A stretch of DNA of 64,000 nt, from positions 230,190 to 294,189 of the forward strand of contig JAQGDQ010000293.1 of NCBI GenBank assembly GCA_030141605.1, in the 5' to 3' direction. This DNA is from Tubiluchus corallicola. Taxonomy: Eukaryota > Priapulida > Priapulimorpha > Priapulimorphida > Tubiluchidae. Shown piece by piece: positions 10,636-16,600 of the stretch (positions are counted from its first letter, which is position 1; each line of letters begins with the position of its first letter). The translations under genes were made by a program, and so were the position numbers. The notes beneath the pieces were generated by a model. The model did not search any database and was not told where the DNA came from. It was given only the letters and a program-made list of their open reading frames with translations.

Positions 10636-13600
10636 CTACAGAAACATAACAATATAATGATTAATATGCAAAAAAACAGACAAGTTCTACATCAAATACA
10701 AATGAATAAAGTCAAAGCTGTTTAACCCTCATGTAAGGCCACATGAATTAATGTGAAGAATGAAGATGCTATGAGAAAAGTCCTGTCAATATGTGTGCCA
10801 ATATAAACCAGATTCATCTAGTTGCACAAACACACACAAAACTTTATTGCTGACTACTTTTCTCTGTACCCTGTGTTGTGACATTTTTAGATTAAACTTA
10901 GAACAAACTTAAATTAAACTATCTAAGTTTAAGCTAAAAATTTTGCAACACAGTGTACGGAAAAAAGCAGTCTGCAATAAAGTTTTGTGTGTTTGTGCAA
11001 ATAGATGAATCAGTTTTATGTTGCTACATAACAGGACTTTTAAACCAGTTAAAACTGGTTCATCTTGAAGATTTTAACTGAAACCTGGCAGGTGAGAAAA
11101 TGAATAAATTTTAGATAAATAATCACCTGTTATACTGTAAATGAAATTCAAGTTCGTGAATTATGAGTTTATAACTTGAACTCGTAAAGCAGTCCACAAC
11201 ATATGCCTAAAACATCTGACCATGGAAGTCATTTGTTAAAAACTAAACCGTTGACAATGGCTTATTTATGTATTACAAACAATGACGTTGGATCAGCATG
11301 GTTAAAAACAGTTGCAAATGCTATCATATTTATTTATTCAAATTATCTCTGTTAAGCTGAGGTATCTCAGTAATTACCATTGCGCTACAGAATATTATCC
11401 TAACTAAATATAAGAGTTTTGAGAAGTGGCTTATGCACATTAAATAACGTGCAAGTTTAAAATTTGCTCACAAAAGTCACTAAATCCCAAACTGTAAGGA
11501 CAGTATTCAAACAGAGTGTAAACCCGGTTATAACTCTCCCCTTTTATAATTCCAAGTTCGCTCGACGACAAAATTTTTATGAAAACAATACATCTATATT
11601 TGCATTGACATGTATGTATTAATGCACCTCGTAATGCTAAACACGCTATAATGCCAACTTAATTTGCAGTCCAAAAGTAGGCGGTATAAAGAGTGATATA
11701 TATTGATTTGTACACCAGAAAGTATTTATAAGATTAATAATAAAGTAAATAAATCTAAAATAAAAACTATGTTATTTTCTCTACTAGCCTTGCCTTTTCA
11801 TGTACCATTCTCTGTCAATAAGCTGATAAAAGTGCATTATTTCTATAAAATTGCATTTACATTTGCATATAGCCTGCATAATCCAACTAAATTTTTGATG
11901 TGTGCAGTGACGAAATATCAACATTGCAAATTAGTTCACTATAATTGTAGAAAATCAATAATTATATCTAAGACAAATACAAACAATGAAGAAAGCGAAA
12001 GCACAGCACAGCAAGCAGTGAGATCTTTTACCGTAGCAATGCCATTATAAATGTATGTATGAAAGAACTGTAAACCAGCAAACCTAAATGATCAGGTTTG
12101 TACGATAGAGAAGCAACTAGAAACTACAATAGTCTGCAGCAAACATTTTCACATCATACCATTTAGTTCTAGAAAATTAACTTAAAATAATCCGGATGTT
12201 TACAATAAGTAAAACAAACTTTGTGAACTTGATTTTGATACTCGAAAATTTGATGCAAAGGAGCTTTGAAAAATCAGGAAAATAAAAAATTATTTAACAA
12301 ATTTAATAAAAAGAATATCTTTGACAGCAACTGAAAAACTAATAACAAACAGTATGGCCAAGATTAAGGAGGTCCCTTTCCGAATGACTTTTCAACAAAT
12401 AGCTTCAAAATTAAAAATTAACATGCGGGACAAACGTTGTAAACGAAAATGAGGTACGCTGACAAGAGTTCATGTTTGTTACAAAATCTCACGCTTAAAT
12501 GTCACCCATCACTATTGAACACAGCAGTGACAGCACTCAAAAAGCAGCAGAAGGAAAAACAAAAACAAAACAAAAAGACATTTAATGATATAAAGAAAGA
12601 TGTATTCACACTGCAAAATGGCTTTATAGCTGCTTACACTATACAGATAAGTTTAACATGTCAATTTAGCTTATCAATTTCATATATAAAAAAACTGCAA
12701 CCAAAACCACGCGTGTAGTGCAACACCACAAACAAAGCACATTATGCCAAATATGGGTAAACCCAGCGGTGACAGACACATTTTTTGCAAACACTATCCC
12801 AGTGGCACAGGACACGATCTTTGCTTACCGTCCGCTGGAAATCGAAGGAATCGACAAAGATTTCAAACCCTTCTCTTCTGCCAAAACCAGACAATTTTTC
12901 ACTGTCTTCTCTAGTAGTTGTTGGGAATTAGCACTATTCCAGCTCGGGCTGTTACAGTGAATGATGTATCCAGCATTGAGGCTGGTGCATTGATCGATAG
13001 CGGCTGTAAAATTAGGTGACACTGTGACAAGTCTTTATCAAACATTGACATTTTCTGTAAATCTGTTAATATGCTAGAATATGGGCTACATTGTAAAACA
13101 GCAAAAACACCGCCTCCTCTTTCAGTTTTAGCAACTATTAGAGTTCTCATGACTTGGAAATCCTTAAATAGGCGAAAAGAGGAACTGTAGGCAGGAGTAG
13201 GTCAAGTGACCCAACGGCCATGTGTAGAGGAGTAAACTTTCCAAATCAGGAGTGGAGCCCCGAAGGCGGAAGAGTGGAGCATGCTCACAGACTCCGGCAG
13301 CTCCTGCAGCCAACCTGGTGCCAAACCTATCACTCCGTTTTCCTTGGGACTACACCAGCGAGGAAGAAAGGGGGTTCCTGTTGTCTGGGCAACTCAGGAT
13401 CTCCATACACCTTGCCCAGAGGCCACTCCAGTGTCACTGCTCCTGTGACAGAAACAACACAGGAGGCACCAGTTACAAATTATAAGCCTAGAGCGAACTG
13501 GCTTGAGGGCGCTATGGGCTGTCTAACTGCCGTTCAAGGATCGGGACTTCTCAGCCACACTCGACGCTGCAGCTCACATCAATGTGATCAATAACTGACT

Positions 13601-16600
13601 CTCTTGGCACACACTCTATTGTCTTCCGAGACAGAAGGAGGCAGGAGTAGCTCATCTCCTTGATATTTGCCTAATGGTATTAAAAATCACCACTCACGTG
13701 CAAAAAAAAGAAACTGATGATCTGACATGACAATATCCAGTTTTTGAGACAAATGCTATCGTAACTTTTCTGCAAATAGCAACAAACAACCTCTTTATGA
13801 TGAACGCACATCCTTCTATCCCATAATTCAATAGGTTTGTTAACAAATGAGTGAATATGTTTCAAAAACAGTCTCCACCAAATTCTGCCATGGTATAAAG
13901 GCTCATGTAAAATTATCCTCAGAATAAATACAGAAGTGCAAATTTAATATGCTGCTAATCAACTAAAAATTTAAACATATCCAAATGAGTGATGAGAATT
14001 AAACCAAGTGAAGACGATATCGAGTTAAACAACAAGGAAGATGCTACAAACCAAACTGTGATAAGGAATTATGAATTGACCGGCAAATACAGCTGGAGCA
14101 TAGAAGAAAAATAGACTCTACCAATAAATTTGAAATGTTAAGAAAAGATATTTAACATGATTTGAATATGAAAATGAATTTACTAACAAGTTAGGATACG
14201 ACGGTGCTCAAGGGTTGATCAAGAAAAACATAGTGGCCTGGGGATTTACATAAGCCAGTAGGAAGCGACAAGAAAGTAATTCTACTTAAAAGAACAGTAC
14301 CTTTATAATAACAAAACAAACATTAAGTACTATGCACTGGGCACTGTCTTTGTCGTAACCAGCTAAGCTAATGTTTGTAATGGAAACAACAAACCAACAA
14401 GAAAATTGAGCAAAAGCTGCTAAGGTTTCAGCAGTGCTTGACAGCTAATAACAATCGCAACAATGCTGACACCAGGTCAAGGTCAATTCAACAAAACAGC
14501 AAGGCAATCAACGAATGGTTGCCCATCAGGGGAGAACTAAACTGAGTCAAATTGCTCCTGGGTGGACTAGAATTAAACACATTGAAACACAGAAACGTAG
14601 ACTTGACATGAAAACCTGAAGTTGACCGGATGACCAACTCTGACCCATATAGCTAGGTAAGCGCTAGCCTACAATCAAATGAGGAGTACAAAAATAAATA
14701 AAGGGTTAATAGCTAGGTAAACTTAATCATCACTGCTGCTGTGCTGTGGCCTGCACCTCCGCCAGACTTACGCTCCATACGACATCGCAGGAACAGCAAC
14801 AGATTTTAAATTTTTCTCGTCTGCAAGGGCCATGCAGTTCCGTATGCATTTTTCCATTTGTTGCTGGGCATTAGTGCTGCCCCACTGTGGTGGGTTACAA
14901 TGTATGACGTGTTTGGCTAAGAAATTATGACCGCCACAAATAGCAGCTGAAACGTAAATAGTTAAGTAAGAAACTCACAAAATTGTCAAGATTATCTCTC
15001 TAATTGCCTGTTATCTCTTATAACAATGAAAAAACTGCAGCCATGTTAATTCTACTAAGACATTGGTTGAGCTAGCCTTAATTACGACAGTTGATACGAC
15101 AATTAAAACGATTCTACATCTAAACATGTTTTATGCATAAATAGTTCAATATCTCTGTCTACTTTTTCACTGATGCAAAATCAAAAACTTCTGAAAATTA
15201 TTTGGTTCATTGTAACATTTTTGGCTGAGCTAGCCTTAATTACGACAGTTGATACGACAATTAAAACGATTCTGCATCTAAACATGTTTTATGCATAATT
15301 AGTTTAATATCTCTTTCTACTTTTTCACTGATGCAAAATCAAAAACTTCTGAAAATTATTTGGTTCATTATAACATTTTCACTTTGTACATCAATTTTTT
15401 ACAACAATTACTGCCGGTTTCATCTTCCGTAATTGTCCTGTGTTTTTCCGTTGCCTCACGGAAACATTCACAATTTTCGAAGCATTTGTATAGGTTTTAC
15501 ACATCAAATGTAGACACTGGAAAGTTCTAATGTGACTGCGGTAAGTCAAATGTAGACATAGGAATTTCGAATGTGTTTCGGTAACTCAAATGTGACTTAG
15601 GTAAGTCAAATGTAGACATAGGAATTTCGAATGTGTTTCGGTAACTCAAATGTGACTTAGGTAAGTCAAATGCAGACGTAGGAATTTCGAATGTGTTTTG
15701 GTAACTCAAATGTGACTTAGGTAAGTCAAATGTAGATGCGGTACTTTGAATAAATCGGTAATTAACTCATTTAAGTGCAAGTTACAAAAAGATAAACCAA
15801 AGATAGTCATCACCTCTTTCATAACTTTGAAAAATGCGTTGTTTATCCTCAAACTAAATTCTTTGATAAACTATAACGTCGGTAGAAAAGAATAAATTGG
15901 TTCCCACTTCCCAATGAACACTGAATCACTAATTAGTTTTTTAAGTAACGCATTACCACGGCATTAATGAATTTGTTTCTCACAAGTAACATTGTTTATT
16001 TTAAGAATTTATTGTTTTCTCTAACAGTTACAATGGTATAAAAAGTTTACAGAATATTAGTAGACCTATAAAGTTATTATTTTCACAGCAATTATTAAAT
16101 TAAGTTTAAAGGAGATTATTATATTTAACATCCTTAAGCTTTACCACCTATCCACATTTGAGATACCAATGTCACATTTGACTTGACATGTGTCTACATT
16201 TGATTTACCAAAAATGCTTAAGATTTCTTGAAAACCATTGTTAACACATTTGAACTACCTTAGTCTACATTTGAGTTACCAAGACACATTTGAATTACCT
16301 AAATCTACATTTGAGTTAACGCAGGTCTACATTTGACATGTAAGACCCATAGAACGTCAGTTAAAAGGAAAAACATCATTAGAAAACTCATCTCAAAGTT
16401 TTAAATTGACAATTCTAATAATTTCCTATTGACAGATTTTAACAATTAGCATATGATAACAACCCTGTAGCTCAGTATTATACGCTTATAGGAGCACATA
16501 AAATTTAAGATACATACTTAAAACTACAATTTCCTAATACAACATATAAACACTTATTTTTACTTAGTTCTGGCTAGGTATTGCAACTATGTAAAAATAC

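Follow-up and report, generated by a model that had tools for sequence, protein, structure and literature searches.

Does a histone gene of a priapulid worm carry two interchangeable versions of one exon, and could these give two proteins with different ligand pockets? The question is raised by the macroH2A gene in a stretch of 64,000 nucleotides (nt) from Tubiluchus corallicola (assembly GCA_030141605.1, contig JAQGDQ010000293.1, positions 230,190 to 294,189), called the window below and numbered from its first letter. A reading of the sequence alone had reported two macro-domain exons of 175 nt (14946-14772 and 13003-12829), with the same phases and both open. Rebuilding the gene bore this out. 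It is complete, runs on the minus strand from 22515 down to 10473, and has eight coding exons including the two copies, designated 6a and 6b; the internal coding-exon splice junctions are GT...AG throughout.

22515-22344, minus strand: coding exon 1, start codon and H2A fold; Pfam histone match
20677-20571, minus strand: exon 2, H2A fold; Pfam Histone match
19523-19266, minus strand: exon 3, end of H2A and basic linker
18381-18319, minus strand: exon 4, linker to the macro domain
16781-16601, minus strand: exon 5, constant; start of the macro domain, with the equivalent of human G224 (window residue 228)
14946-14772, minus strand: exon 6a (a-type), 175 nt, residues 261-319, ends ...PAMSYGA
14771-13004, minus strand: intron between 6a and 6b, 1768 nt
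13003-12829, minus strand: exon 6b (b-type), 175 nt, residues 261-319, ends ...PSISSGR
10635-10473, minus strand: exon 7, constant; end of the macro domain and stop; the first base of the exon completes codon 319

The reading frame accepts one copy at a time

Exon 5 ends in phase 1, exon 7 starts in phase 2, and 6a and 6b share these phases. The predicted protein is open and 372 residues long with either copy, and the two isoforms differ only at residues 261-319. Because the length of each copy is 1 modulo 3, no macroH2A results when both copies are included or both are skipped. With both included, a stop falls at codon 336, leaving 123 nt up to the last coding junction; with both skipped, the stop comes at codon 274 and lies within the last coding exon. 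That either event breaks the frame had been stated from the sequence alone, and the computed stops agree. Since inclusion of both or neither hits an early stop, the frame filters splice products. Thus the two exons are tandem and homologous, of equal length (175 nt each, 28/59 residues identical) and the same phases, and only single inclusion keeps the frame, as in mutually exclusive pairs.

The gene encodes a macroH2A. Isoform b matches Pfam Histone, Histone_H2A_C and Macro, and so has the H2A fold, linker and macro domain of a macroH2A; Pfam Macro scores are 104.9 and 96.1 bits for the two isoforms (cut-off 22), and the best PDB matches of the histone part and of both macro domains are macro-H2A.1. 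Among the 120 matches listed (of 1000), the closest is the macroH2A of Priapulus caudatus, with 81% identity across the macro domain, and none of the remaining 119 exceeds 73%. A macro-domain search of the 343.5-Mb genome (2344 contigs) gave five matches at an expect value (E) of 10 or less, four of them exons of this gene and the fifth at E 0.57; no second macroH2A locus was found in this protein search, in which the best candidates alone were scored.

The likeness of 6a and 6b is beyond chance, because a tblastn search with 6a found 6b at E 6e-18 and the next best match in window 9000-24000 at E 0.12; no third copy of the exon was found in the same search region. Protein identity is 28/59 (27/57 over whole codons), near enough to the 46% or so first counted by hand, and nucleotide identity is 98/175. 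Over the 57 codons the copies differ at 26 first, 15 second and 33 third positions (p 0.003). Synonymous sites are close to saturated; NG86 yields no estimate, and YN00 gives nonsynonymous and synonymous divergences (dN and dS) of 0.53 and 1.89. An assembly error or an allele was considered and rejected, as the copies differ at 77/175 nt, 6b occurs once in the genome by DNA search, and a protein search, scoring the best candidates alone, places both copies at this locus only.

Taken together, these data make it very probable that a single macroH2A exon was duplicated in tandem and that its versions, 6a and 6b, are used in a mutually exclusive way, predicted to yield two 372-residue proteins. 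Exon 5 would join 6a or 6b, and then exon 7, to give two histones that differ only in residues 261-319. The earlier proposal that the gene makes both proteins stands as the best reading, with both single-copy frames open; that T. corallicola produces both, and regulates the choice between the exons, is what we infer, and by default the choice would be regulated by proteins.

The duplicated segment is predicted to end at the ligand pocket

Window residues 317-319, at the end of the swapped segment, align to S313-G314-R315 of human macroH2A1.1. They are S-G-R in 6b and Y-G-A in 6a, and S-G-N in the a copies of the mollusc pairs described below. The codon of residue 319 is split over the junction, and the first base of exon 7 completes CG to CGT (Arg) after 6b or GC to GCT (Ala) after 6a. 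We take the exon-6 segment to be a strand-helix-strand unit, and its end to be the distal-phosphate loop of macroH2A2. That loop, which binds the distal phosphate, is where macroH2A2 differs from macroH2A1.1, and G224E abolishes binding of adenosine diphosphate (ADP)-ribose (PMC8232725; papers cited here and below are represented by excerpts of their text). Judged from these alignments, the most likely outcome is two macroH2A proteins with different ligand pockets. They would differ in binding of ADP-ribose or of another ligand, b keeping the vertebrate-like S-G-R loop and a replacing it; isoform b would be the more macroH2A1.1-like reader, and isoform a would have a changed phosphate-side loop.

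A switch of this kind is known from vertebrates, where macroH2A1.1 binds ADP-ribose and macroH2A1.2 does not (PMC8232725, PMC7645758). The gene family and the macro domain are the same, and in both cases a mutually exclusive choice alters the ligand pocket, or is predicted to do so in the window; however, the vertebrate pair replaces the preceding segment (the G224 region) and the window pair the next one. Human macroH2A1.1 and 1.2 are identical over the segment that is duplicated in the window, whose exon 5 has one version, 1.1-like, and tblastn detected no second, vertebrate-type exon 5 in window 9000-24000. For these reasons the window pair, which would work like the vertebrate 1.1/1.2 switch, is not that switch. 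Vertebrate macroH2A2 (MACROH2A2) is likewise a macroH2A with a change in the distal-phosphate loop (PMC8232725), but there the change resides in a separate gene rather than in an alternative exon.

The sequence-only reading had known of no description of alternative versions of this exon, the known vertebrate pair lying in the preceding segment, and a full-text literature search likewise showed none in the titles, abstract openings and passages of the papers listed; it did not extend to work on mussel macroH2A or on how macroH2A evolved, so novelty is provisional. In the available text of the 2012 nomenclature paper, vertebrates are the sole group for which splice variants of macroH2A are mentioned (PMC3380720). 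A paper on bivalve chromatin names macroH2A 21 times but never uses "splice" or "splicing" (PMC5550673), and the excerpts of PMC12153100, PMC7050489, PMC5011920 and PMC12156399 describe no second form of the exon.

The same pair in other animals

Three protein searches (best 120 of 1000 matches, best 120 of 3541, and 70 of 70) together gave 187 proteins, in 186 of which the segment was located. A filter for pairs that are alike outside the exon and unlike inside it left 12 rows, two within one named species and the others joining different or unnamed species. In the scallop Pecten maximus, isoforms X1 and X2 are identical outside the exon (277/277 and 53/53) and share 46/59 residues inside; in the soft-shell clam Mya arenaria, X1 and X2 agree at 269/269 and 53/53 positions outside and 37/60 inside. 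These isoforms, like those predicted here, differ only in the 6a/6b-equivalent segment; they are known as sequence records, and their a loop is S-G-N as against Y-G-A in window 6a. Ruditapes philippinarum X2 pairs with an unnamed full open reading frame (ORF) on a 1.2-kb contig (270/271 and 53/53 outside, 39/59 inside), and two unnamed ORFs on 4.7- and 1.8-kb contigs, perhaps from two ark-clam species, have exons matching both copies of a Tegillarca gene model (251/262 and 53/53 outside, 34/59 inside). Being full open frames on contigs of 1.2-4.7 kb, the unnamed sequences would be transcripts.

Both copies are fused in one frame in gene models of Strigamia maritima (a centipede; second copy partial), Tegillarca granosa (an ark clam) and Paralvinella palmiformis (an annelid), apparently because a gene finder joined exons that are alternatives. 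The copies stand in the order a then b in 3/3 of these models, as in the window. The search for a second exon in relatives, proposed with the original reading, thus succeeded in Pecten, in Mya, in two pairs with unnamed sequences and in the fused Strigamia, Tegillarca and Paralvinella models; for Priapulus the matches listed hold the a form only. Some invertebrates therefore probably make two macroH2A proteins by a splice choice distinct from the vertebrate one, to judge from these records, and a warning follows for annotation: in gene models of invertebrate macroH2A, one of the isoforms can go unseen or be fused.

Two further groups of sequences were seen in the same collection. In tick-type sequences (P0047, P0057, P0069, P0071, P0081, P0082 and P0113; named members Amblyomma, Ixodes and Dermacentor) the a-type exon has a rewritten end loop, for instance THN or SHS, and the GFPKQ found after the loop in other sequences is missing, as though the ligand loop had been given up. 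Echinoderm and coral macroH2A sequences (P0075, P0161, P0073) have differing loops, SGG, SGR and SGA, so that either a or b may be the ancestral type.

One old pair or several duplications

In the six pairs, residue 319 is Arg in 6/6 b copies; it is Asn in the five a copies that extend this far, the sixth a copy being truncated. In the window it is Ala in 6a and Arg in 6b; as in bivalves, the downstream copy ends in Arg and the upstream copy does not. Over 141 distinct segments, counted without the three fused models, this last residue is Arg in 67, Asn in 43, Ser in 12, Ala and Thr in 5 each, Gly and His in 3 each, and Gln, Lys or a gap in 1 each. Column 23 (Gly in a, another residue in b) was tried as a further marker. 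It looks diagnostic in the six pairs, yet is unlinked to last-column Arg over the 141 segments (Fisher p 0.87), and for this reason the last column alone was kept. Profiles built from the pairs (score a minus b) placed 6a at +10.9 and 6b at -11.3, and assigned 11/12 paired copies correctly when each was left out in turn.

A tree of 43 hand-selected rows (59 columns), with unpaired rows labelled by their last residue and with bootstraps not settled, grouped all 23 b rows, with 6b and the exons of human and lancelet among them, on the same side of one branch (91/88), and 0/500 shuffles needed as few changes. In the same tree 6a is sister to the Priapulus exon at 100/99; the two exons are identical at 45/59 residues. 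When the last column and column 23 were removed, in a tree whose bootstraps had likewise not settled, the a/b split required 4 changes instead of 1 (shuffled mean 14.4), the split was lost, and the rows nearest to 6b were a mixture of a and b. Approximately unbiased (AU) tests, which covered the window, Ruditapes, Mya, Paralvinella, Pecten and Strigamia, rejected a species-own duplication for Ruditapes (p 0.004), Mya (0.017) and Paralvinella (0.039).

These results make an old pair likely within molluscs and annelids, and a single common origin that extends to the window pair is tentatively favoured. The competing explanation, which we regard as rather unlikely, is that the mutually exclusive pair of the window originated independently, through a duplication within the priapulid line, and that the pairs of molluscs, annelid and centipede are parallel inventions on a duplication-prone exon. 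It draws on the loss of the split without the two diagnostic columns, on the equal nearness of 6b to scallop a and scallop b (36/59 each), and on AU tests that did not reject a species-own pair for window 6a+6b (p 0.07), 6a+6b+Priapulus (0.35), Pecten (0.09) or Strigamia (0.19). Against it stand the union of all 23 b rows in the 43-row tree, the AU rejections for the two clams and the annelid, the a-b order common to the window and the fused models, and the way in which Arg or non-Arg at residue 319 tracks position in the pairs. In the profile test the Strigamia a copy was misplaced (-5.8), and Priapulus scored only +2.9.

With rather less than even confidence, we propose from these comparisons that the pair may be an ancestral protostome, perhaps bilaterian, macroH2A switch that sets the phosphate-loop side of the pocket, of which, judging by the matches listed, insects and vertebrates would have kept b and spiders and ticks a; in vertebrates a second and independent switch would have evolved later in the preceding exon. 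On that view the control by splicing of what macroH2A reads as ligand would far predate vertebrates and would have been invented twice, on opposite sides of one pocket. Lying at another exon than the vertebrate switch, the pair would also offer a second natural experiment on the purpose of the choice, since different lineages would have switched different sides of the pocket.

Splicing signals around the two copies

Among frame-incompatible mutually exclusive exons, 377 human clusters (60%) have lengths not divisible by three (PMC5740500). The window pair resembles exons of this type, as the excerpt describes them, in its equal phases and in a length not divisible by three; it differs in that no short intron, U12-type donor or docking sequence was found. 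Steric exclusion was ruled out because the 1768-nt intron between 6a and 6b is too long for it. No U12-type donor was seen in the gene, all sites being GT-AG with donors that are U2-like by eye. Physical exclusion (steric, U2/U12 or docking) was therefore not seen among the signals of the gene; it is not a required feature of such pairs, and the frame alone can enforce exclusivity. By a rough matrix the donor of 6b is the strongest of the gene (4.83, vs. 1.68 for 6a), and the pyrimidine fraction of the acceptor tract is 0.71 for 6a vs. 0.59 for 6b.

Could a single protein be made?

Several observations weigh against two working, mutually exclusive copies. Single-copy forms were seen in the records of relatives only, and no T. 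corallicola transcripts were found. Between the introns there was no 12-nt complementarity, apart from one low-complexity match, that could serve as docking and selector RNA pairing. Counts of QKI, MBNL and RBFOX motifs lay near shuffled means, with no clear enrichment for a splicing factor; the largest excesses were MBNL, 22 vs. 16.3, in the intron before exon 7 and QKI, 3 vs. 1.6, in intron 5. In neutral simulations 57 codons remained open in 8-20% of cases, so that openness alone is weak evidence (of fixed-frame 175-mers in the flanking introns, 128/5440 were open). Exon 6b lacks a G-x-N-F-P-A-K-like stretch that most compared copies keep in some form, and in a quick-stage tree of 111 rows it was flagged as a long branch (0.74; 6a 0.31 + 0.37) and left unplaced. 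The Priapulus record has the a form only, with no priapulid b form among the best 120 of 3541 matches or in 70 of 70.

Some of these points would suit an improbable alternative in which one of the copies is defunct or hardly used any more and a single isoform is made, most likely a, the form of the Priapulus record: besides that record, the missing stretch, the long branch in one of two trees and the chance of openness under neutrality. Neither copy looks decayed, however, because 6a and 6b are each nearer to either of two scallop exons (36/59) than to one another (28/59), and it is this conservation, more than openness, that speaks for both; over 12 compared proteins, identities range from 28 to 45 of 59 for 6a and from 29 to 38 for 6b. 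Exon 6b has kept its length, its phases, the best-scoring donor of the gene, 61-62% identity to scallop exons and the Arg of all six paired b copies, and in the 43-row tree its end branch (0.58) is no longer than that of 6a (0.36 + 0.23), the two being about equal. Still less probable is that the second copy is mainly a poison exon, its double inclusion leading to a stop and a lower dose of macroH2A with no second protein. By the usual rule, a stop beyond 50-55 nt upstream of the last junction marks a transcript for decay, and the stop at codon 336, at 123 nt, would do so. A poison exon has no need, however, to keep 57 whole macro-domain codons in their own frame, and in the scallop and the soft-shell clam both the a and the b form are annotated as single-copy isoforms. 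We thus retain two exons used one at a time as the preferred reading of 6a and 6b.

Other features of the window

A 498-amino-acid open frame at 28111-29607 (plus strand), which lies upstream of the macroH2A gene and on the other strand, matches Pfam HLH at 60.8 bits; its helix-loop-helix domain presumably resembles that of ATOH8. Repeats occur in several introns of the macroH2A gene. Intron 4 contains a 91-nt unit repeated five times with 91% matches (17129-17582). Intron 5 contains an inverted-repeat stretch of about 870 nt (15486-16354), with outer arms and arrays of a 20-21-nt unit, possibly a non-autonomous transposon. Slightly upstream of exon 6a, at 15063-15379, a 158-nt unit stands in two tandem copies that are 96% alike, a recent local duplication beside an old one. 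About 190 nt upstream of exon 7 lies an inverted repeat (10827-10997) whose 76-nt arms are 86% complementary and 19 nt apart.

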